A DNA stretch of 64,000 bases from Kutzneria kofuensis (GTDB lineage Bacteria; Actinomycetota; Actinomycetes; Mycobacteriales; Pseudonocardiaceae): positions 2,978,038-3,042,037 of the forward strand of contig NZ_JACHIR010000001.1 in assembly GCF_014203355.1 (NCBI RefSeq). The letters are read 5' to 3'. This document shows, piece by piece, positions 5,473-54,495 of the stretch; positions within the stretch are counted from its first letter, which is position 1, and every line of letters begins with the position of its first letter. The notes under the pieces are model-generated. The model was not told where the DNA came from. It was given only the letters and a program-made list of their open reading frames with translations, and made no database searches. Both the position numbers and the translations under genes were made by a program.

Positions 5473-8577
<3,105 letters not shown>

Positions 8578-8578
8578 C

Positions 8579-10449
<1,871 letters not shown>

Positions 10450-42814: not shown

Positions 42815-43648
42815 GTGGTGCGGTTCCGGTTCCTGCTACAGCCCAACTGGCTGCTGCTCACGGCGGTGGTGTTCGTGTTCGCCGCCGCGTGCTACGCGAT
42901 CCTGGCCCCGTGGCAGTTCAGCCGGAACGCCGACCAGCAGGCCCAGAACACCGCGCTGACCTCGTCCTTCACCAGCAAGCCGGTGCCGCTCGACCAGCTG
43001 GTTCCGGCCGGCACCGAGCCGTCGAGCAAGGCCGTGTGGCGGCTGGTCACCATGACCGGCACCTACGAGCCGGCCGGCGAAGCGATGGCTCGCCTTCGCA
43101 CCGTGCAGGGTGAGCCGGCGTTCGAGATCGTCACCCCGTTCAGGCTCACCGACGGCCGGACCGTGCTGGTCGACCGCGGCTACCAGCCGCCCGAGGCCGG
43201 CAAGTCGGTGCCCGACTACGCGGCCGCGCCCAAGGGCCAGGTCACCATCACCGCTCGGGCGCAGGCCGACGAGCCCGCCGACAAGCGCCCGACCTTCCTG
43301 GACAGCGGCCGGCGGCAGATCTACTCGATCAACTCCGGCACCGTGGCCCAGGCCGCGAACATGAAGATCGACCCCGGCTACTTCCAGCTCGACGCCAACC
43401 AGCCCGGCGTGGTCAAGGGCGCGCTGCCCCTGCCACAGCTCGACGACGGCCCGTACTTCTCGTACGCGATCCAGTGGCTGATCTTCGGCTCGATGGCGCT
43501 GTTCGGCTGGGGTTACTTCACCTGGCGGGAGGCGCGTCCCGGCGGCGCCCTGGACAACTCCGACAAGCCGAAACGGAAGTCGGTCGCCGAGATCCTGGCC
43601 GAGGACGAGGCCCGCGAGCGCGAAGAGGCCGCCGCCGCGAAGGGCTAG
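42815..43648 (+). CDS. SURF1 family cytochrome oxidase biogenesis protein
   Basis: A 277-residue inner-membrane protein. A first helix lies at about 12-31, a large extracytoplasmic SURF1 domain follows with VLVDRGYQP near 120, and a C-terminal helix is at about 210-232 ahead of a charged tail. SURF1 assists haem-copper oxidase assembly. Position matches Rv2235. Two adjacent GTG codons (42815, 42818) compete. TACCGT at 42806-42811 is a -10-like hexamer whose start point would fall on the second GTG, so a leaderless message is possible. Confidence 0.88.
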   Translation: MVRFRFLLQPNWLLLTAVVFVFAAACYAILAPWQFSRNADQQAQNTALTSSFTSKPVPLDQLVPAGTEPSSKAVWRLVTMTGTYEPAGEAMARLRTVQGEPAFEIVTPFRLTDGRTVLVDRGYQPPEAGKSVPDYAAAPKGQVTITARAQADEPADKRPTFLDSGRRQIYSINSGTVAQAANMKIDPGYFQLDANQPGVVKGALPLPQLDDGPYFSYAIQWLIFGSMALFGWGYFTWREARPGGALDNSDKPKRKSVAEILAEDEAREREEAAAAKG

Positions 43649-43726: not shown

Positions 43727-44713
43727 TCAGTTGCGTCGGCGGCGGATGCCGATGGCGAATGCGAGCACGGCGGAGACGGCTGCGGAGGCGGCACCGACCA
43801 CCCTCGAAAGTTCAACCGCTCGGGTGACGTGGCCGGCGTCCGGGCTCCGGCCGTGACCGAGGACGGGGCGTTCCTCGGTGCCGTGGGAGTACACGGTCCG
43901 GCCGCCGAGGCGGATCTCCAGCGCGCCGGCGAAGGCGGCCTCCACCTGGCCGGCGTTGGGGCTCGGGTGGGCGGAGGCGTCCCGCCGCCAGGTCTGCCAG
44001 GCGCTACGCGAGGAGCCGCCGACGACGGGGGCGCTGACCGAGGTGAGCACGGCGGCGAGCCGGGACGGGACGAGGTTGGCCAGGTCGTCGAGCCGAGCGG
44101 CGGCCCAGCCGAACTTGGCGTAGCGGGGCGACCGGTGGCCGACCATGGCATCGAGGGTGTTGGCGGCGCGGTAACCGAGCAGACCGGGCACGCCGGCGAC
44201 GGCGCCCCAGAACAGCGGGGCGACGACGGCGTCAGAGGTGTTCTCGGCCACTGACTCGACGGTGGCTCTGGCCAGACCGGCGGCGTCGAGGCTCGAGGGT
44301 TCGCGTCCGCAAAGGTTTGGCAGTCGCTCGCGGGCGGCGGCGATGTCGCTCGCGTCCAGGGAGCGGCCCATGGCGGTGCCCTCGGCGGCGAGGGACGCGC
44401 CGCCGAGCACGGCCCAGGTGGCGAGCGCGGTGGTGGCGACCTGCACGAGCGGTCGACGCCGGCCGAGCCGTTCGACGACGACGCCGGCAGCGACGGCACC
44501 GCCGGTGAGCAGGGCACTGTGCACGATGCCGGGCAGCTTGTGGTCGCGGTAGACGGCTCGTTCGAGCGCGGCGGCCGTCGAGCCGAACGCGGCAACGGGG
44601 TGCCATCGCTTCGGGTCGCCGAACACCGCGTCGGCAGCCGTTCCGAGCAGCAGGCCGACCGCCCTCGCCGCGTTCACTCCGCAGTCCCCCGTCTTCCCGC
44701 CTCGCTTGGTCAT
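43727..44713 (-). CDS. cobD: Adenosylcobinamide-phosphate synthase
   Basis: CobD/CbiB integral membrane enzyme that attaches the aminopropanol moiety to adenosylcobyric acid. The 328 residues contain VFGDPKRWHPVAAFG (30-44), ATVESVAENTSDAVVAPLFW and GYRAANTLDAMVGHR, all family landmarks, and several membrane helices. Position and orientation match Rv2236c. The ATG gives a 13-residue basic leader before the conserved region; an internal GTG is an alternative. No cobalamin riboswitch is seen upstream. Confidence 0.92.
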   Translation of the reverse strand: MTKRGGKTGDCGVNAARAVGLLLGTAADAVFGDPKRWHPVAAFGSTAAALERAVYRDHKLPGIVHSALLTGGAVAAGVVVERLGRRRPLVQVATTALATWAVLGGASLAAEGTAMGRSLDASDIAAARERLPNLCGREPSSLDAAGLARATVESVAENTSDAVVAPLFWGAVAGVPGLLGYRAANTLDAMVGHRSPRYAKFGWAAARLDDLANLVPSRLAAVLTSVSAPVVGGSSRSAWQTWRRDASAHPSPNAGQVEAAFAGALEIRLGGRTVYSHGTEERPVLGHGRSPDAGHVTRAVELSRVVGAASAAVSAVLAFAIGIRRRRN

Positions 44714-44781
44714 AGGACGTTATCGCCCGCTCATCACCCGTTCGGCGACAGGTGGCTCAGCGACCGGGCGCGGGCCGGTTA

Positions 44782-46374
44782 ATGTGGCCGACCGTGGAGC
44801 AGGAGCAGCACGCCCAGGACACGCTCACGGCGTCCGGCCCGGGCTCGGAGTCGACCGATCGCAGGCTGCTGCTGTACGCGTACCTCCAGCCCCGCGAGCA
44901 TCACCGCACCTATCTGACGACGATGCGGCTGTTCGCGTCGACGCTGCTGGCCGACCTGTCGGCCGGTGAGGTGGCGGCGAAGCTGGCGGCGGCGGAGCGG
45001 GAGGGGCTGATCGACCCGGGTGAGTCCCGGATCGAGACGGTGATCGCCCGGCTCAAGCAGCTGGTGGAGTGGGGCAACCTGGTGCCGGGCCGGCGCGAGG
45101 TGATCGCTGCCAGCATCGCGGAGTTCCAGCACGGCAGCGTCCGCTACCAGGTGAGCAAGCTCGCGGTGCGGGTGCAGCGCGACGTCGACGAGCTGCTGCG
45201 GGTTCCGGAGGGTGCCCGCGAGGTGTCGCGCGAGCTGCTGCCGGCGATCGAGCGCGGCCTCGGCCAGCTCGGCCGGTCGCTGTCGGACGCGGTGTTCACC
45301 GAGGGTGGTCCGGGCGCGAAGCGGGCCCGGGAGGCGCTGGCCGAGCAGGTCACGACGTTGTTCCTGCAGCACGCGGAGCTCGCGGTGACGGTCCGCGACT
45401 TCTACGCCTACCTGGGTCAGATCGTCACGCGACACCACCTGGCGCCGGACGAGATCTCCGGCTTCCGCAACCTGCTCGTCGAGTACATCCAGATGGTCGT
45501 CGAGGACGTGCTGCGGCACACGCCGGCGATCGCGGAGTCGCTCGGGCAGCTGGCGCGGGGCCGGAGCGAGCTGCTGCGGCTACTCGGGCCGGCCAACGCG
45601 CTCGGCTCCGACGACCTGCTCGCGGGGACTGCGATCGAACGGTCACGCGGCCGGACCGCGGCGGACTGGCAGGACCTGACCGACTGGTTCGTCGACCGTC
45701 CGGGTCGACCCAGTCAGGTCACAGCGCTACGCGAAGCGACCGGCCGCGCGATCGGGTCACTGCTCGCGAGCGTGAAACGGGCGACCTCCGGCGGCGGGCT
45801 GCTGCCGGGTCGCCGGGCCGAGCTGTTGAAGCTCGCCGGCTGGTTCGACAGTGCGACGCCGGACCAGGCGCACTCGCTCTACGCCGCCGCGTTCGGGCTT
45901 TACTCGGCACGCAATCTGCTGCCGTCGCCGGAACACGACGGTGACGACGAACACACCCCATGGCGTGACGGCCCGGTGCTCGACGTGACGGTCAGTGTGC
46001 GCAGCCGCGGGGACCGCGGCGCGCGGGGCCGGACGTCCCGGATCGTCGACGACCCGATCACCGAGCAGGCGCTGCTCGCCGAGGCGCGACATGTCGACAA
46101 GAAACGCTCGGAGGCGGTGACCGAGCTGGTGGAGGCGGCGCCGACGATCGAGGAGAGCCGGCTTTCCCATGGCGCCCTCGACGTGTTCTGCGAGCTGTTG
46201 ACGATGGCGATGGCGCAGCGCGAGCGGGCCGAGGACGTCGGCTCGGCCGCCGACCCGGTGCGCGGGCTGAAGCTCACCGTCACCCCCGAGGAAGGCCGGA
46301 CGACGACCATCAAGACCGCTGGCGGCACGCTGACCCTGCACAACGCGTCCGTGGCGCTGGAGGCCGGCGCATGA
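44782..46374 (+). CDS. jetA: Wadjet subunit JetA (TIGR02677/DUF2397)
   Basis: A 530-residue kleisin-like subunit of the JetABCD plasmid-defence complex. The conserved N-terminal pattern is YLQPREHHRTYLTTMRLF followed by a winged-helix region with LKQLVEWGNL. The middle has long helices (about 90-260) and the C-terminus is a second small domain. It is first in a strictly overlapping operon with TIGR02678 and TIGR02680 homologs, which secures the identity. Start is uncertain: ATG 44782 is used, but GTG 44794 preceded by TAATGT could be a leaderless start, and GTG 44752 is in frame. Confidence 0.85.
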   Translation: MWPTVEQEQHAQDTLTASGPGSESTDRRLLLYAYLQPREHHRTYLTTMRLFASTLLADLSAGEVAAKLAAAEREGLIDPGESRIETVIARLKQLVEWGNLVPGRREVIAASIAEFQHGSVRYQVSKLAVRVQRDVDELLRVPEGAREVSRELLPAIERGLGQLGRSLSDAVFTEGGPGAKRAREALAEQVTTLFLQHAELAVTVRDFYAYLGQIVTRHHLAPDEISGFRNLLVEYIQMVVEDVLRHTPAIAESLGQLARGRSELLRLLGPANALGSDDLLAGTAIERSRGRTAADWQDLTDWFVDRPGRPSQVTALREATGRAIGSLLASVKRATSGGGLLPGRRAELLKLAGWFDSATPDQAHSLYAAAFGLYSARNLLPSPEHDGDDEHTPWRDGPVLDVTVSVRSRGDRGARGRTSRIVDDPITEQALLAEARHVDKKRSEAVTELVEAAPTIEESRLSHGALDVFCELLTMAMAQRERAEDVGSAADPVRGLKLTVTPEEGRTTTIKTAGGTLTLHNASVALEAGA

Positions 46375-47612
46375 AGGACGTGCTCGACGGCCTCTCCGAC
46401 ATCGACGCCGCGAACGTGGTGCGCTGCGCTCGCGTGCTGCTGAGGCGGCCTTTGTTGCGTGCGGACGGACCAGATGGCGACTTGCTGCCGCTCGTCTACC
46501 GGCACCGCACCACGCTCCAGGACCTGTTCGCCGGGCTGCTGGCGTACCGGCTCGTGGTGGAGCGCCGCTTCGCCCGCCTCTACAAGCCGGGGCCGGGCTT
46601 CGACCCGACCCGCGGGGAGCCGACGCTGTCGCCGCGCGGCTACACCTACTTCGCGCTGACGATCGCCGCGCTGACCGGCGTCGGCCGCCAGGTGCTGCTG
46701 TCGCGCCTGGTCACCGACGTGCGGGCGGCTGCGGTCGAGGCCGGCGTCGCCGTCACGGATGACCTGCCGGACCGCCGCGCGCTGACGGCGGCGCTGCGTC
46801 ACCTGCTCGCGTTGGGCGTGATCACGGAGACCGAGGGCACCGTCGCGCCGTGGGGCACCGAGGGGCCGGCCGAGGCACTGATCACCATCGACACCGATCT
46901 GCTCGGGCAGCTGCTGTCCGGCCCGTTGCTGGAGGCGACCGGCCCGGATCACCTGATCGAGCTCGCCGCCCGGCCCGGCCCGCGCGGCGCCGAGCACGCC
47001 GTGCGGCGCAAGCTCGTCGAGAATCCGGTCGTGCTCCAGACCGACCTGCCGCCCGACCAGATGGAATGGCTGCGGCGGAACCAGCGTCGGGAGTCGGCGC
47101 TGCTCGAACGCAACTTCGGGCTGGTCACCGAGACGCGGCTGGAGGGCGTCGCGGTCACCGACCCCGAGGACTACCTCACCGACGTGCTGTTCCCGGGGTC
47201 GGGGACGGTCGCCCGGATCGCGCTGCTGGCGCTGCCGGAGCTGATCGCCGACCCGGATCCGGAGTTGTTCGCCGACGACGTCGAGCCGCCCGAGCCGCGG
47301 CCCGACGGCCGGCACCCGGTGCAGTACGGGCAGGTGCGGCTGATCTGCGCGCAGCTCGTCGAGGACTATCCGGCGGCGTGGTCGCGGCAGGCCACCGAGG
47401 ATCTCGACCGGCTCACGAACGACGTGCTGGACCTGCTGGTCCGCATGGGGCTGGCCGTCGACGACCCGGTCGAGGGCTGGCTGATCGCGCCCACCGCGCA
47501 CCGCTGGGTGCCGCAGCCGGACGACACGCCGGCGCGCAGCACCCCGCCACCACCGCCGGCGGAACCCGAAGAGCCCGGCTGGTCCCTGTTCGACGGAGAA
47601 GGTGAACTGTGA
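46371..47612 (+). CDS. jetB: Wadjet subunit JetB (TIGR02678/DUF2398)
   Basis: A 413-residue KITE-type winged-helix subunit that bridges JetA and the SMC heads. The N-terminal RCARVLLRRPLLRADGPD, then YRHRTTLQDLF and LVVERRFARLYKPG, and the SPRGYTYFALTIAAL segment fit DUF2398. A proline-rich linker near 390-402 precedes a C-terminal FDGEGEL tail. The ATG overlaps the JetA stop by 4 bp and its stop overlaps the JetC start by 4 bp. Confidence 0.87.
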   Translation: MKDVLDGLSDIDAANVVRCARVLLRRPLLRADGPDGDLLPLVYRHRTTLQDLFAGLLAYRLVVERRFARLYKPGPGFDPTRGEPTLSPRGYTYFALTIAALTGVGRQVLLSRLVTDVRAAAVEAGVAVTDDLPDRRALTAALRHLLALGVITETEGTVAPWGTEGPAEALITIDTDLLGQLLSGPLLEATGPDHLIELAARPGPRGAEHAVRRKLVENPVVLQTDLPPDQMEWLRRNQRRESALLERNFGLVTETRLEGVAVTDPEDYLTDVLFPGSGTVARIALLALPELIADPDPELFADDVEPPEPRPDGRHPVQYGQVRLICAQLVEDYPAAWSRQATEDLDRLTNDVLDLLVRMGLAVDDPVEGWLIAPTAHRWVPQPDDTPARSTPPPPPAEPEEPGWSLFDGEGEL

Positions 47613-50600
47613 GCGATCAGCGTTGGACGCTGCACCGGGGTGGCATCGTCAACGTGTGGCAGTACGCCGAGCAGGTCTTCGACTTCTCCGGCGGGCGGGC
47701 GATCTTCCAGGGCACCAACGGCTCCGGCAAGTCGCGCACGCTGGAGCTGCTGCTCCCGCTGTGTCTGGACGGCGACCTGCGGCAGCTGGGCTCGAAGGGC
47801 TTCGACACGGTCAGCATCCGGCGGCTCATGCTGGACGACTACGACGGCGGTCCGAACCGGATCGGCTACGCCTGGATCGAGTTGCGCCGGGGCGAGGACG
47901 AGTACCTGACCTGCGGTCTCGGCGTGAAGGCGTCGAAGACCTCGCAGCAGATCACCGACTCGTGGCGGTTCGTCACCTCGGCCCGCGTCGGCAAGGACCT
48001 GCGGCTGGCCGGGCCGGACCGGGTGCCGATCGGGCCGGCGCAGCTGCGTGACCTGGTCGGCGCGGACTGCATGTTCGAGGACGCGGCGTTCCGGGCGAAG
48101 ATCGCCGAGACCGTCTACGGCGTGCCGGCGGCCCGCTACGCCGACCTGCTGCACCTGCAGCGGACGCTGCGCAATCCGGACGTCGGCCTGAAGGTGCTGG
48201 AAGGCCAGCTGGAGCAGATCCTGTCCGACGCGCTGCCGCCGCTGGACGTGGCGCTGGTCGAGCAGCTGGCGACGTCGTTCGACGACCTGGAGTCGATCCG
48301 CGAGAACATCACGCGGCTGACCACCGCCGACTCGGCGCTGACGGCGTTCCTCGGCACCTACTCCGGCTACGCGCTGGCGAGCCTGCGCGGCTTCGGCGAC
48401 AAGGTGGTGAGCAGCCGTAAGAGCCTAACGGCGCTTGGTTCTGAACTGGAGTCGCTGGAGCGGAAGCTCGCGGCGGCGCGGGACGGCCGGGTGACCGCAG
48501 AGCAGGCGGTCGCCGAGCAGGAGGCGCAGGACAGCCAGCTCGACGCGCGTATCGAGGCGTTGAAGGAGCTGCCGGCGTATCGCGGGATGCGGGACCTGCA
48601 GGACCGCGAGCAACTGGTCGCCCGGTCGCGGTCGGCGGCCGAGGCGGCGCTGGACACCGCGAGCCGGCAGCGCGCGCAGGAGGACCGCGCGGTCGACTCC
48701 GTGCTGGCGGTGCTGCGGCGGCTCGGGCTCGACATCGACAGCGCCGACGAGTTGGCGGGGCACGCGCGTGAGCGGCTGGCGATCGCCGGCCTGGACGGCG
48801 ATCTGTGTCCGAAGGTGCCGCCGATGCCGCCAACCGACGCGCAGGTGACGCAGGACCGGGTGCGGGCGAAGCCGGATCCGGAGGCCGAGGCGTTGACGAT
48901 CGACCGGCGGCTGCTGCCGGCGATCGATCCGCAGTCGCTCCTCGACACGCTCAGCGACGCCGGTCGGCAGGCCGAGCAGGTCGCGACCGAGGCTCGTCGC
49001 CGCAATGCGCTGACGTTGTCGCTGCACGAGCGGGCGCTGGCGTCGGACCGTCAGCTGCGTGACGTCGAGGAGCTGCATCGCGCGGCGCGGCAGGCGCAGC
49101 TGACCGCGACCGAGGCGGCCGGGCGTCGCAACGAGGCTGGCCAGCAGTTGGCGACGGCCGTGGACGTGTGGCGTGAGCAGGCGCGGCGGTGGGCCGCGGA
49201 GAACGGGCCGCAGCCGCCGACCGCGGAGCGGTTGATCGAGGATCGCGGCGCGGCGCGGGCGGCTCGGGACAGCGTGCGGCAGTGGGCGTCGCCGAAGTCG
49301 CACGAGCTGCGGCAGCGGGTCGTGGGCGCCGAGCAGCGGCTGGACGACCTGCGGGCGACGATCACGCAGTACGAGGCCGAGGTCGTCGCGCTGCGTTCCG
49401 GCGGCGCGGACGAGCAGTCCGATCCGTCGGCGTTCCACCGGCTCGTCGACTTCGTGCCGACACTGCCGGAGGCCGAGCAGGCCGGCCTGGAGGCGGCGCT
49501 GCAGGCGAGCGGGTTGCTGACGGCTCGGGTCTCGGCGACCGGTCGTGTCTCCGATGCCGACCTGGCCGAGGTGATCGCGCTCGCCGGCCCGGCGGCGGAC
49601 GGCCGGACGCTGGCCGACGTGCTGATCCCGGCGGCCGAGCCGGGCTGCCCGGTCCCGAGCGAGGTCGTGGCGAAGCTGCTGGCGGCGGTGGGTGTCGCCG
49701 ACGAGCCGGCGTCGACCGAGACGCCCGGCCTGGTGCTGGCGACGAGCGGCGCGTGGCGGGCCGGCGTGCTGTGCGGGGCTCAGACGAAGCCGGTCGCGGA
49801 GTTCGTCGGCACCGGCGCTCGGGAGGCGGCACGGCAGCGTCGGCTGGCCGAGCTGAGCTCGGCGGTCGAGCGGCTGCACGTCGAGTTGGCCGACGCGGAG
49901 CGCATGTGCGACCAGGCGCGTGCGGCCGCGGCCGAGTGGGAGCAGCACGTCGAGACGTTCCCGGACGACGGCGAACTGATCTCCGCGCACGCGAAGCTGA
50001 CCAGCGCGAAGGAGTCGGCGCAGGAGGCCGAGGAGCGCGCCTACTCGCTGCGCGCCGAGCACCAGGCCAGCGACGAGCGGTGGCATGCGGCGCGGGCCGA
50101 GCTGGTGCAGGCGGCGTCCGAGGCCGGCATCGGGCTGGGCGACACCGTCGACACGGAAGCACTCGATCGGGCGAATCGGGCGGCGTCGGAGGCGCGGGTA
50201 GCCGCCGAGCAGCTGGCCGAGGCGTTGGCCGGGCGGTGCGCGCGGACCGTCATCGACCTGATCGACGCGATGCAGCACCACCACGCGGCGCTGACCGACC
50301 GGACCGAGGCGGAGTCGGCGGCGGACGCGCTGTGCGTCGAGTACGCGGACCGGTCGCACGGGCTGGCCGAGCTGAGTTCGGCCATCGGCGGCGAGGCCGA
50401 GGAGGTCTCGCGGCAGCTGGCGACGTTGGACGCGGAGCGGCGGGCCCTGCGCAAGCAGCTGCCGCAGTCGCGGGAGAAGGTCGTCGAGCTGCGTGAGCAG
50501 GCGACGAAGCTGGAGACGTTGCTGGAGACGAAGCGGGCGCAGTTGACCGGTCGGGAGGGAGATGCCTCGGCCGCGGTGGACGCGTTCGAGCAGGCCCTGG

Positions 50601-51652
50601 CGGCGCCGGGTGTGTGGTCGGCGGCGTTCCCCGAGGTCGAGTTGCCCGCCGAGGTCGACGGCGCATTGGCGCTGCTCGACGGTGCCGGCGATCGCAAGGG
50701 TTCGACCGAGGGCACCGTCATCGGCAAGCTCCAGGTGCTGCAGACCTCGCTGGCCGGCACGCACGACATCGGCGCCGAGACCGCCGGCGGGGTGTTGACC
50801 GTGACCGTCACCGGGGAGGACGGGCCGCGCCCCGTCGCCGACGCCGCGCTGCGGGTGTCGCAGCGGCTGGCCGAGCAGCGTGGCTTCCTCGGCGAGCGGT
50901 ACCAGTCGATCTTCGCCGACTACCTGATCCGGGACCTGGCCGAGCGGCTGCGCGGGCAGATCGAGGTCGCCGAGGACCTGTGCCGGCGGATGAACGACGT
51001 GCTCGACCAGGCTCGGTCCAGCCAGGGCGTGCACGTCCAGCTCGAATGGCGGCCGTCGGCGGCCCTCGACGACCGGACCAAGCAGGCCCTCGAGCTCGTG
51101 CGGACGCCTCTGGCCGACCGCACGTCCGAGCAGGACGACCTGCTCCGGCAGGTCATCACCGAGCGGATCGAGGCCGAGCGGGACGCCCATTCCAGCGGCT
51201 ACGCCGAGATCCTGGCGCGGGCCCTCGACTACCGGACCTGGTACTCGTTCACCGTTCGGGTCCGCGACACCGGCCCCGACGGCAAGCCCCGGGTCCGGCG
51301 GCTCCGGCAGCTGTCCTCCGGTGAGACCCGGCTCGTGTCGTACGTGACCCTCTTCGCCGCCGCCGCGTCGTTCTACGACGCCGTCAGCAGCGGCGGCGAG
51401 GAGGCTCCCCTGCGGCTGGTGCTGCTCGACGAGGCCTTCGAGCGCCTCGACGACCCCACCATCGCCCGCATGCTCGGGCTGCTCGTCGACCTCGACATGG
51501 ACTGGGTGATCACCTGGCCCAGCGGCTGGGGCGTGTCGTCCAAGATCCCGCGCATGCACATCTACGACGTCCTGCGCCCCAAGAACGGACGCGGCGTCGC
51601 CTGCACGCACACCACCTGGGACGGCGCCGGCCTGGACCGCGAAGACCCGTAA
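47609..51652 (+). CDS. jetC: Wadjet SMC-like ATPase JetC (TIGR02680)
   Basis: A 1347-residue SMC/MukB-like motor. The N-terminal head has Walker A GTNGSGKS (35-42). Residues about 270-600 and 750-1100 are long alanine/glutamate-rich coiled coils flanking a hinge-like region near 620-740. The C-terminal head has the ABC signature QLSSGET (1234-1240) and Walker B LVLLDEAFERLDD (Asp1274, Glu1275). It would extrude DNA loops powered by ATP and present plasmid DNA to the JetD nuclease, which is missing here. The GTG start overlaps the JetB stop. The operon ends at a strong terminator. Confidence 0.92.
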   Translation: MSDQRWTLHRGGIVNVWQYAEQVFDFSGGRAIFQGTNGSGKSRTLELLLPLCLDGDLRQLGSKGFDTVSIRRLMLDDYDGGPNRIGYAWIELRRGEDEYLTCGLGVKASKTSQQITDSWRFVTSARVGKDLRLAGPDRVPIGPAQLRDLVGADCMFEDAAFRAKIAETVYGVPAARYADLLHLQRTLRNPDVGLKVLEGQLEQILSDALPPLDVALVEQLATSFDDLESIRENITRLTTADSALTAFLGTYSGYALASLRGFGDKVVSSRKSLTALGSELESLERKLAAARDGRVTAEQAVAEQEAQDSQLDARIEALKELPAYRGMRDLQDREQLVARSRSAAEAALDTASRQRAQEDRAVDSVLAVLRRLGLDIDSADELAGHARERLAIAGLDGDLCPKVPPMPPTDAQVTQDRVRAKPDPEAEALTIDRRLLPAIDPQSLLDTLSDAGRQAEQVATEARRRNALTLSLHERALASDRQLRDVEELHRAARQAQLTATEAAGRRNEAGQQLATAVDVWREQARRWAAENGPQPPTAERLIEDRGAARAARDSVRQWASPKSHELRQRVVGAEQRLDDLRATITQYEAEVVALRSGGADEQSDPSAFHRLVDFVPTLPEAEQAGLEAALQASGLLTARVSATGRVSDADLAEVIALAGPAADGRTLADVLIPAAEPGCPVPSEVVAKLLAAVGVADEPASTETPGLVLATSGAWRAGVLCGAQTKPVAEFVGTGAREAARQRRLAELSSAVERLHVELADAERMCDQARAAAAEWEQHVETFPDDGELISAHAKLTSAKESAQEAEERAYSLRAEHQASDERWHAARAELVQAASEAGIGLGDTVDTEALDRANRAASEARVAAEQLAEALAGRCARTVIDLIDAMQHHHAALTDRTEAESAADALCVEYADRSHGLAELSSAIGGEAEEVSRQLATLDAERRALRKQLPQSREKVVELREQATKLETLLETKRAQLTGREGDASAAVDAFEQALAAPGVWSAAFPEVELPAEVDGALALLDGAGDRKGSTEGTVIGKLQVLQTSLAGTHDIGAETAGGVLTVTVTGEDGPRPVADAALRVSQRLAEQRGFLGERYQSIFADYLIRDLAERLRGQIEVAEDLCRRMNDVLDQARSSQGVHVQLEWRPSAALDDRTKQALELVRTPLADRTSEQDDLLRQVITERIEAERDAHSSGYAEILARALDYRTWYSFTVRVRDTGPDGKPRVRRLRQLSSGETRLVSYVTLFAAAASFYDAVSSGGEEAPLRLVLLDEAFERLDDPTIARMLGLLVDLDMDWVITWPSGWGVSSKIPRMHIYDVLRPKNGRGVACTHTTWDGAGLDREDP

Positions 51653-51654
51653 GC

Positions 51655-51681
51655 GGGGTGGGGGCCGTTGGCCCCCACCCC
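51655..51681. terminator. Terminator closing the jetABC operon
   Basis: A perfect 12-bp stem GGGGTGGGGGCC/GGCCCCCACCCC with a GTT loop, 2 bp after the jetC stop and 10 bp before the convergent exoprotein stop. It can serve both genes and marks the operon end. Confidence 0.85.
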
Positions 51682-51690
51682 ATCGGGTCG

Positions 51691-54495
51691 TCAGGCGAAG
51701 TAGCCGAACACGTCGGCGACGACGTCGACCGTGCCGGCCAGGTTGTAGAAGTCGACCTTGCCGTCCGGTCCGATCGGCACGATGACCTGCCCCTGGGTGA
51801 TCTGCCCCGCGCCGAAGTTGAGGTTCGACGTGCTCGGCCGGTCGCCGCTCGGGAACACGGTCAGAAAGCTGCTGGCGGTCGGATTCACCACCGTCACGTT
51901 GAGCACTACCGACTTGGCGTACGCCGGCACCGAACCGACACCGGCCACGCTCAGGCCCAGGGTGCCGTTCGGGCCGACCGGCGTCGCGTGGTCTCTGGTA
52001 TCCAGCAGCCGTGACGGCGCGAGGGGCATGAACGCCGTGCTCGGGGTCTGGGTGGCATACCACTCGTCGAAGGAACCCTCGACATCGGCGATCACGTCGG
52101 CGCTGCCGAAGTGGTTGGTGACGTCGATTTTGCCGCTCATCGGCACCGGCACGATCACCAGGTTCGAGGTGGTCTGCCCGGCGCGGTAGTTCAGGTTGGA
52201 CGCCGTCGGCGTGGGCACGCCGTCCGGCGAGACGGTGAGGAAACTGTCGGTGCTCGCGTTGGTCACCGTCACGTTCAGCACGACCGCCGAGCCGAGGCCC
52301 ATCACGTTCAGCACCTGGGTCCCGTGGACCGGGGCCTGCGGCACACCGCCCGTGCCGTCACGGGTGTCCATGACCCGACGGGGTTGGACCGTGGTGAGGA
52401 AGTTGCCGGTCCGCGCCGCCGGCGACGCCTGGTAGTAGCCCTGCAGGTCGACGACGACGTCCACCGAGCCGCTGTGGTTGGCGATCACAACCTTTCCGTC
52501 CGGACCCACCGGCACCGTCACCAGATTGGGCACGGTCTGCCCGGCGCCGAAGTTGACGTTGGACGTGCCGGGGTTGGCTCCGCCACTCGGGTACACGGAC
52601 AGGAAGCTGTCCGCGGTGGGGCCGGTCGCCGTCACGTTGAGGACCACCGCCGTGACGCCGGTCGTCGGGACGCCATATGTCCCGGTCACCTGCACACTCG
52701 TCTGGCCGCCCGGGCCCACCGGGCCGCTGCCGTCCCGCGTGTCCAGCAGCCGCTGCGGTCCGGCGGGGACATAGGCACCACCCACGGTGACCTGCCGCGA
52801 CGTCGTGGTCGCGTTGCCACCGCCGTCCCGCATGGTCATCGTGATCGTGTAGGTGCCGGGGGTGGCGTAGGTGTAGTCATCGGTGCCGTTGGGGCTCTTG
52901 ATCACCGGGCTTCCGTCGCCGTGGTCGTAGTCGTACTCGGTGATCGCCCACGGGTCGGTCGAGTCGCGGGCGTCCACGTCCACCGTCAGCGGCCCGACCT
53001 GACGTACGGTCAGCTTGGCGACCGGCGGGGCCGGCGTCGTGACCTTGACAAGGTTCGCGGCGTGGCGCGTCACGCCGGCCGGGAGGTTGACCGTCACTTC
53101 GGTTTCGTAGCTGGAATCGGACGCGTGCTCGTAGGTGTGCTGGACCGCAAGCGAGCCGGTGGTCACCGGCGCGCTGCCGTCGCCGAACTCGAACGTGTAG
53201 GACGGCTGCGTCGACCACGGGTCGTCGACCTCCGCCTTGAGCGTGACCGGCAGCGGGGACGGGCCCTGGGTCGGGGAGACATCGAACTGCTTGAGCTGGA
53301 ACGGATCCTGGAGCTCCGACGCGCCACGATCGGCGAACCCCGCGCTCGCGTTGGCGGCGAGCGGATCGTCCACGCGAGGGGCGTGGTTCAGGTCGGTCGG
53401 GAGCTCACCCGGCGCCGTCGGGTCGCCGGAGTCGATCGCCGGCGAGCCCTCGGCCAGCGCGAGCGTGGCGCTGGCCGCGAACTTCGGGTCGGCGGTCATC
53501 TCGTGCACGCCCTGGCCCGAAGCCGAGTGGAAGTCCGCCGATGTCTTGTACCCGACTCCGCCCCAGCTGTACGCGGAGCCCCCCGAGAGGGGGTGCGTCA
53601 GGTTGTAGTCGACGACGGTTCCGTCGGTCGAGCCGGCGGCCACCACGATCTCGGCGCTCGACGGGGAGCGGTGCACCTTGCAGTTCGGCTCGTTGGAGAC
53701 GGTCGCGTCGTTGCTGCCCACGATGTTGTTCTCGACGGTCGCACCCGTGGTGGCGCCGCCGAGCGAGATGCCGGCCACGCAGTTGCCGAACACGGTGTTG
53801 CTCGAGACCACGGTGCCCGGAGCGTCAGTGGCGACGACGCCCGGACCGTAGTTGCCCCGGATCAGGTTCGTCGTGACGGTGCTGTCGGTGACACCCTGGC
53901 CCACGGAAACGCCGGTGGCGCCCCATCCGGTGATCAGGTTCCGGCTGATAGTGACCGCGCTGCTGCCGTTGGTCAGGCTCACGCCCGCCGTCGGCGCGGT
54001 CTCCAGGCCGTGGCCGACGCTGACATAGTTGCTGTCGACGGTCACCCGGCTCGAGTTGTCGATCACGAAGGCGCCGGCCGTGCCCACGGTGTCAAAGGTA
54101 CTGATGACGATGTCGTGCGACCCCGTCACGGTGAACGCGTGCGGGGCCTGGTAGCCGTCGCTCGTGAAGCCCACCGCAGTCTGGACCGGAGCGCCGAGGA
54201 GCTGCTTCACGCTGACGAAGGTGATCGGCGTGCCGGGCGAGCCCGACCTCGTGATGGTCACCGGAGCGTAGTCCCCGGCGTCGACGTGCACGGTCTGCCC
54301 CGGTAATGCGACGTCGGCGGCGGCCTGGACGGTGCAGAACGGCTGGTTCTGCGTGCCTGGGCCGGTGTCGAGGCAGGACATGCTGCGCTGAGCGACGTAG
54401 AGGTCAGTGGCCGTGGCGGCGTTCGCGGGCACGGCGAGAGCGGCCGAGCTGACGAGCGTGAGCACCAGCGCCGAAGGCGCAAGGCGTCTTGACAC
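51691..54495 (-). CDS. Secreted beta-helix/PKD exoprotein with three C-terminal repeats
   Basis: A 934-residue exported protein. It has a signal peptide (about 1-26, ending VPANA) and a right-handed parallel beta-helix (about 40-380) rich in Asn, Val and Thr with short repeating turns. Two PKD-like domains follow (YTFEFGDGSAP and YDYDHGDGSPV, about 410-580). Three repeats of 110-120 residues then end the protein (about 585-700, 705-815 and 822-934), each opening with a (R)LLDTRD-like motif and containing a conserved SFLTVxPxG strand. These repeats occur on actinobacterial wall enzymes and may bind the cell surface. Enzymatic activity (polysaccharide lyase-like?) is not demonstrable. The GTG is preceded by GGGGAG 8 nt upstream. 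Confidence 0.87.
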   Translation of the reverse strand: MSRRLAPSALVLTLVSSAALAVPANAATATDLYVAQRSMSCLDTGPGTQNQPFCTVQAAADVALPGQTVHVDAGDYAPVTITRSGSPGTPITFVSVKQLLGAPVQTAVGFTSDGYQAPHAFTVTGSHDIVISTFDTVGTAGAFVIDNSSRVTVDSNYVSVGHGLETAPTAGVSLTNGSSAVTISRNLITGWGATGVSVGQGVTDSTVTTNLIRGNYGPGVVATDAPGTVVSSNTVFGNCVAGISLGGATTGATVENNIVGSNDATVSNEPNCKVHRSPSSAEIVVAAGSTDGTVVDYNLTHPLSGGSAYSWGGVGYKTSADFHSASGQGVHEMTADPKFAASATLALAEGSPAIDSGDPTAPGELPTDLNHAPRVDDPLAANASAGFADRGASELQDPFQLKQFDVSPTQGPSPLPVTLKAEVDDPWSTQPSYTFEFGDGSAPVTTGSLAVQHTYEHASDSSYETEVTVNLPAGVTRHAANLVKVTTPAPPVAKLTVRQVGPLTVDVDARDSTDPWAITEYDYDHGDGSPVIKSPNGTDDYTYATPGTYTITMTMRDGGGNATTTSRQVTVGGAYVPAGPQRLLDTRDGSGPVGPGGQTSVQVTGTYGVPTTGVTAVVLNVTATGPTADSFLSVYPSGGANPGTSNVNFGAGQTVPNLVTVPVGPDGKVVIANHSGSVDVVVDLQGYYQASPAARTGNFLTTVQPRRVMDTRDGTGGVPQAPVHGTQVLNVMGLGSAVVLNVTVTNASTDSFLTVSPDGVPTPTASNLNYRAGQTTSNLVIVPVPMSGKIDVTNHFGSADVIADVEGSFDEWYATQTPSTAFMPLAPSRLLDTRDHATPVGPNGTLGLSVAGVGSVPAYAKSVVLNVTVVNPTASSFLTVFPSGDRPSTSNLNFGAGQITQGQVIVPIGPDGKVDFYNLAGTVDVVADVFGYFA

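Follow-up and report, generated by a model that had tools for sequence, protein, structure and literature searches.

Apparent stepwise loss of the nuclease subunit JetD from a conserved chromosomal type II Wadjet locus of the Pseudonocardiaceae

The stretch of DNA considered here (the window) comprises 64,000 nucleotides of the 10.4-Mb assembly of Kutzneria kofuensis (G000, C1:2978038-3042037) and carries the genes jetA, jetB and jetC of a Wadjet system, without the nuclease gene jetD. We lean toward the explanation that these genes encode an ancestral chromosomal type II JetABC motor, the JetD partner of which was decommissioned early and then eroded, so that the complex would load on DNA and extrude loops without cutting. 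Its present activity is probably something other than plasmid cutting. The gene set, its synteny, the stepwise loss of JetD, the integrity of the ATPase motifs, the selection acting on the genes and the lack of any JetD in some entire genomes are all read from the sequence, as described below.

An earlier interpretation of this DNA (the sequence-only reading) had assigned the cassette to type I, and this label does not hold. The type II PADLOC models JetA2, JetB2 and JetC2 match the window proteins with 671, 403 and 1167 bits, contiguously and in the order expected for type II, whereas the type I JetC models reach at most 69 bits on the window JetC and cover the C-terminal head only. By these profile matches the cassette is a type II Wadjet and not type I. 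The coordinates and matches do confirm three overlapping genes in the order jetA-jetB-jetC, with a 4-bp overlap at each junction, and the Walker A, signature and Walker B motifs of JetC are intact, as claimed (see the table). The NCBIfam assignments in that reading stand for TIGR02680 (664 bits, cut-off 463) and TIGR02678 (127 bits, cut-off 125), but TIGR02677, with 155 bits, falls slightly short of its cut-off of 166. Position 44782, given as the start of the cassette, is an in-frame ATG but lies 10 codons inside jetA as we define it, from an upstream GTG. DUF2397 and DUF2398 were matched with Pfam. The closest solved structure to the window JetC is the JetC of 9qe0 (phmmer 7e-64), and phmmer with JetB found no relative in the PDB. 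The structure model of JetA was poor (predicted local distance difference test, pLDDT, 60) and was left unused; the folds of JetA and JetB are family assignments only.

Coverage of the Pseudonocardiaceae consisted of 40 genomes from 39 genera, together with a genus set and loci found by pattern. Relatives of the window JetC, with 52-97% identity, are present in 23 of the 40 sampled genomes, and a JetB-based route located this clade of loci in 39 named contigs. All carriers belong to the family, bar one contig labeled Nocardia that falls beside Lentzea in the JetC tree, and outside the clade JetC identity drops to 35% or less. In 58 of 59 different loci, from more than 20 genera, cobD lies divergently beside jetA (the exception is L143), mostly followed by SURF1 and often accompanied by a low-molecular-weight phosphatase gene. 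Because this arrangement is so nearly constant, the synteny identifies the clade jetABC as an ancestral chromosomal locus, inherited vertically at one place.

JetD at this locus exists in several states. Every JetD found after jetC was aligned with the JetDs of mobile loci and its Toprim triad was read at the positions of E285, D332 and D334 in the JetD of locus L129; the counts that follow refer to the 59 loci of the JetC tree. The E-D-D triad is intact in only 5. In 7 (Actinokineospora and G037) the glutamate is replaced by T, A, S, Q or R and both aspartates are kept, and in 19, the Lentzea group, the glutamate has become R or H and the second aspartate T or S. Another 5 loci encode the N-terminal half alone (182-235 aa, no Toprim domain), and in 2, both from Saccharothrix, a DUF3323 N-terminal domain is fused to a TIR domain, as it is in a third strain (L208). 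The remaining 21, including all six Kutzneria, have no JetD, so that the comparison across relatives proposed earlier shows the lack of JetD to be no accident of this one locus. A further locus outside the tree, L145, has the triad A-D-D. For the window itself the absence of jetD after jetC was correctly noted; none occurs in the 12 kb of the window that follow or downstream of jetC in five other Kutzneria. In a set of 27 sampled genomes, intact JetD accompanies 5 of 27 clade loci. Of the 15 type II JetC loci outside the clade in these genomes, 14 have a JetD no more than about 8 kb away (Fisher P = 3e-6), and those of these JetDs that were inspected are E-D-D.

The predicted fold of the intact protein was compared with solved structures. 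In the PDB, phmmer with an intact clade JetD detected no relative, but a fold search with the L129 model gave MksG of Corynebacterium glutamicum as the best match (Foldseek E 3e-6), followed by topoisomerase VI A and Spo11; the model is of moderate quality overall (pLDDT 72) and better in its Toprim part (80-93). Cleavage by MksG requires E236 and D279 (PMC10123090), and motif and secondary structure suggest the residue-by-residue correspondence with the clade triad. The N-terminus of JetB also varies: it reads F[DE]xL wherever JetD is intact (five loci) and in most Saccharothrix, and LxxL in Kutzneria (window 46371-46410), Actinokineospora and most Lentzea. An IFDR motif at this end of the type I JetB contacts JetD (PMC10586767), and the difference may therefore reflect a lost JetD contact, the homology of the type I and type II motifs being only presumed.

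The position of jetD varies as well. In Actinokineospora inagensis (L063:15350-16459, minus strand) it has the opposite orientation to jetABC and converges with jetC. In many Lentzea (e.g. L068, L070 and L079) jetC and the broken jetD are as much as 2.6 kb apart, with other DNA between them, and in other Lentzea the two genes overlap or are at most about 100 bp apart.

The JetC tree, a quick maximum-likelihood tree with a distant outgroup on long branches and with support from the Shimodaira-Hasegawa-like approximate likelihood ratio test (SH-aLRT) only, bears on the order of these events. The five loci with intact triads form one group (SH-aLRT 90) and 53 others a second (SH-aLRT 95), which contains no intact triad, with L144 left unplaced. 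Read most simply, this topology would mean a single early loss of JetD catalysis followed by several different fates, and a minimum of seven changes is needed on the tree to account for the absence of JetD. A recent strain-level deletion was considered and rejected. Relatives with jetD directly after jetC, proposed earlier as the sign of such an event, do exist, but only in other genera and with JetDs that are mostly catalytically broken, and all five other locus-carrying Kutzneria genomes lack jetD, so that the loss is older than the divergence of the sampled Kutzneria.

The motor has fared differently from its nuclease. All 59 JetCs retain the ATPase motifs. Among Kutzneria, ratios of nonsynonymous to synonymous substitution (dN/dS, Nei-Gojobori), which are simple estimates on GC-rich DNA, are 0.06-0.17 for jetA, 0.08-0.19 for jetB and 0.08-0.24 for jetC, equal to or below those of most neighboring genes (0.03-0.65). 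By this measure jetABC is under purifying selection. A broken jetABC was rejected as well: G003 is split by a run of N in the assembly, the insert in L087 is in frame, and a single frameshift occurs only in the Kutzneria genome G002 (L024), near jetC residue 1265 in a gene otherwise 94% identical, which reflects either an error in sequencing or a recently formed pseudogene. The broken JetD of Lentzea itself has a dN/dS of 0.19, against 0.14 for JetC, and this constraint suggests that the protein has a role other than cutting in that genus.

In established Wadjet systems JetABC extrudes DNA loops as a motor, and JetD cuts once a small circle has been fully extruded (PMC10586767, PMC12647877). 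In the mechanism we propose, JetD would first have lost its glutamate and then an aspartate too, or its Toprim domain, or have gained a TIR domain, or, as in Kutzneria, have disappeared. JetABC would still load on DNA and extrude loops with ATP, like other Wadjet and MksBEF complexes, and without an active JetD would then release or stall without making a cut. The likeliest surviving use would be on chromosomal DNA, alongside the ordinary structural maintenance of chromosomes (SMC) protein, which is also present (952 bits). Loop extrusion, the lack of cutting and a chromosomal role are extended to this locus by analogy with these systems. We give an even chance to the fuller proposition that the Pseudonocardiaceae motor parted from nuclease activity once, early, and was kept as a nuclease-free SMC machine, so that the proposed change from plasmid-cutting immunity to chromosome handling can be traced stepwise in living species. 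The motor would then have a broken JetD for a structural subunit in Lentzea and a TIR effector in Saccharothrix, and in Kutzneria would work without a partner.

The most serious alternative, which we consider possible but distinctly less probable, is that the locus still serves defense. Loop extrusion would sense small circular or foreign DNA, and the plasmid would be silenced or sequestered, or an unlinked effector would act, with TIR taking this part in Saccharothrix. The JetD-TIR fusion stands downstream of cobD/jetABC in three Saccharothrix strains and consists of DUF3323 and TIR_2 (E 1e-23), with TIR where the Toprim nuclease would be. It is 69% identical between strains, its TIR part (dN 0.15) is more conserved than its N-terminal part (dN 0.27), and it contains a conserved WTKQE stretch, which, from general knowledge of TIR enzymes, we take to hold the catalytic glutamate. 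The retention of the JetD N-terminal half without Toprim in five loci also fits this alternative, and Lamassu is a precedent for swapping effectors, TIR included, on an SMC-like sensor (PMC10586767). The fusion was rejected as a common Wadjet component, since it occurs in none of 118 other genomes of the class and no plasmid record covers 80% of it; the 324 matches listed are led by TIR-only hits. Against the alternative, no conserved gene follows jetC in Kutzneria and many other carriers; the genes there vary by genus and are mostly on the opposite strand. A different nuclease encoded just downstream was rejected, as no conserved gene is common to the JetD-less loci. Moreover, the locus is fixed on the chromosome, with no mobile or defense-island setting. 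The earlier suspicion of another job or another effector is probably right. A common replacement effector was not found, and clear effector exchange at the locus is confined to Saccharothrix.

That the locus is a decaying remnant of a defense system on its way out seems improbable. JetD is eroding across the family, jetC is frameshifted in one Kutzneria genome and many genera have no clade locus, but the three genes are under strong purifying selection and the ATPase motifs have stayed intact in 59 JetCs, many of them long after JetD was lost, while the broken JetD is itself conserved in Lentzea.

The sequence-only reading had allowed for a JetD encoded elsewhere, and one does exist in G000, but inside a separate, complete type II jetABCD (G000:C1:2847-2856 kb; L005, G000:C1:2842000-2860000), the JetD of which (G000:C1:2847475-2848293) has the triad E-D-D. 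Judged from translations, apparent transposase or integrase genes flank this second Wadjet, which looks mobile, unlike the vertically inherited cobD-linked locus. A JetD remnant with stop codons lies at G000:C1:5370017 (L006 near 7884-8642). The search for TIGR02679 covered 35 genomes and that for DUF2399, the Toprim part, 14. Eight carriers, 95-100% complete, have neither anywhere in the genome: two are Kutzneria (G001, G003) and six represent other genera (G012, G014, G026, G028, G032, G036). The genome of K. buriramensis, a soil strain, encodes no JetD. The 14 of 15 control loci with a nearby JetD indicate that the search finds JetD where it is present. JetD does not co-occur with the locus, since these two Kutzneria and six genera have the same jetABC and none, and JetD supplied in trans by the second Wadjet, with plasmid cutting continuing, is thereby refuted as a general account. 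The two JetCs are only 28% identical, and this alternative seems very improbable.

Several observations nevertheless weigh against a nuclease-free chromosomal motor. The 17 of 40 sampled family genomes without the clade locus imply that it has been dispensable over long times. The fusion in Saccharothrix shows that this very locus can take on an effector of the immune type, which fits continued defense better than housekeeping. An intact JetD resides in the very genome from which the window comes, and part of the Lentzea JetD seems to keep a role with which Kutzneria dispenses.

It is of interest to compare the locus with known systems. It shares with type II Wadjet (JetABCD-II), of which nvJET of Neobacillus vireti cleaves naked circular DNA (PMC12647877), the JetA2, JetB2 and JetC2 families, the gene order, the overlaps and the SMC motifs. 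It differs in lacking JetD, in the mostly broken JetDs of its relatives and in its fixed chromosomal position, and no cutting is expected. MksBEFG of C. glutamicum, which is type I-like, is likewise an actinobacterial SMC plasmid defense, and its MksG has the closest solved fold to intact clade JetD; MksG is active and requires the residues named above, whereas most clade loci lack such residues or the whole protein. Lamassu also combines an SMC-like sensor with exchangeable effector domains, including TIR (PMC10586767), but belongs to other protein families, and TIR exchange here is limited to the Saccharothrix JetD. The precedent for a JetD-less Wadjet relative as such is MksBEF, for example the condensin without nuclease of Pseudomonas aeruginosa, with which the window locus, by family assignment, has the kleisin-KITE-SMC set in common. 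The window gene content fits such a nuclease-free complex, with JetA and JetB folds assigned by family only and in a sequence family different from MksBEF. Here the loss lies within type II, appears stepwise within one bacterial family and has left its intermediates visible.

Descent from Wadjet-like defense complexes through nuclease loss has been proposed for MksBEF and MukBEF (PMC10586767). Our best reading is that the locus encodes a nuclease-free SMC motor, a type II parallel to the proposed conversion of JetABCD to MksBEF. The literature searched, which covered few subscription papers, contained no such family-wide, stepwise series at a single type II locus with a selected, catalytically broken JetD and a TIR exchange, and we know of no visible series of intermediates for the transition from Wadjet to MksBEF or MukBEF. 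At one syntenic locus, related genera here have JetD intact, without its glutamate, doubly broken, truncated, fused to TIR or absent altogether. The sequence of these changes, what JetD does other than cut and what a nuclease-free type II motor is for can therefore be tested directly. In addition, Wadjet calls made from JetABC alone will overstate plasmid defense in actinomycetes.

Table. Features of the cassette, its flanks and the Saccharothrix fusions (window positions unless a locus is named)
Feature	Position	Strand	Remark
jetA, type II, DUF2397	44752..46374	+	540 aa, GTG start; kleisin-type subunit by family assignment
jetB, type II, DUF2398	46371..47612	+	413 aa; N-terminus MKDVLDGLSDIDA; KITE-type subunit by family assignment
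jetC, type II SMC ATPase	47609..51652	+	1347 aa
JetC Walker A GTNGSGKS	47711..47734	+	motif reading of sequence
JetC ABC signature LSSGE	51311..51325	+	motif reading
JetC Walker B LVLLDEAF	51416..51439	+	motif reading of sequence
Stem-loop, perfect 12-bp stem, 3-nt loop, GGGGTGGGGGCC-GTT-GGCCCCCACCCC	51655..51681	.	between convergent genes
cobD, divergent from jetA	43727..44713	-	syntenic anchor; neighborhood comparison
SURF1-like gene	42815..43648	+	conserved upstream neighborhood; neighborhood comparison
JetD-TIR fusion, Saccharothrix	L069:15233-16354		downstream of cobD/jetABC
JetD-TIR fusion, Saccharothrix	L083:17180-18283		downstream of cobD/jetABC
JetD-TIR fusion, Saccharothrix	L208:11828-12934		downstream of cobD/jetABC

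In the window the place held by jetD in relatives is occupied by a stem-loop. The perfect 12-bp stem described earlier is indeed present and begins 2 bp past the jetC stop. The 61-nt stretch that holds it folds at -41.7 kcal/mol (z -5.9). The stem-loop lacks a U-tract, for which reason it is missing from the list produced by a classical terminator scan; it is likely a two-way terminator, as its earlier description suggested in part. The next gene, as had been stated, is an exoprotein on the opposite strand, which ends at 51691. This gene (window 51691 onwards, minus strand) is large and convergent with jetC, and contains a PKD-like repeat and repeated RLLDTRD motifs; K. buriramensis does not have it. 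A PKD-like gene is likewise found at the locus of Kutzneria sp. 744 (L026) and none at that of K. buriramensis (L022).
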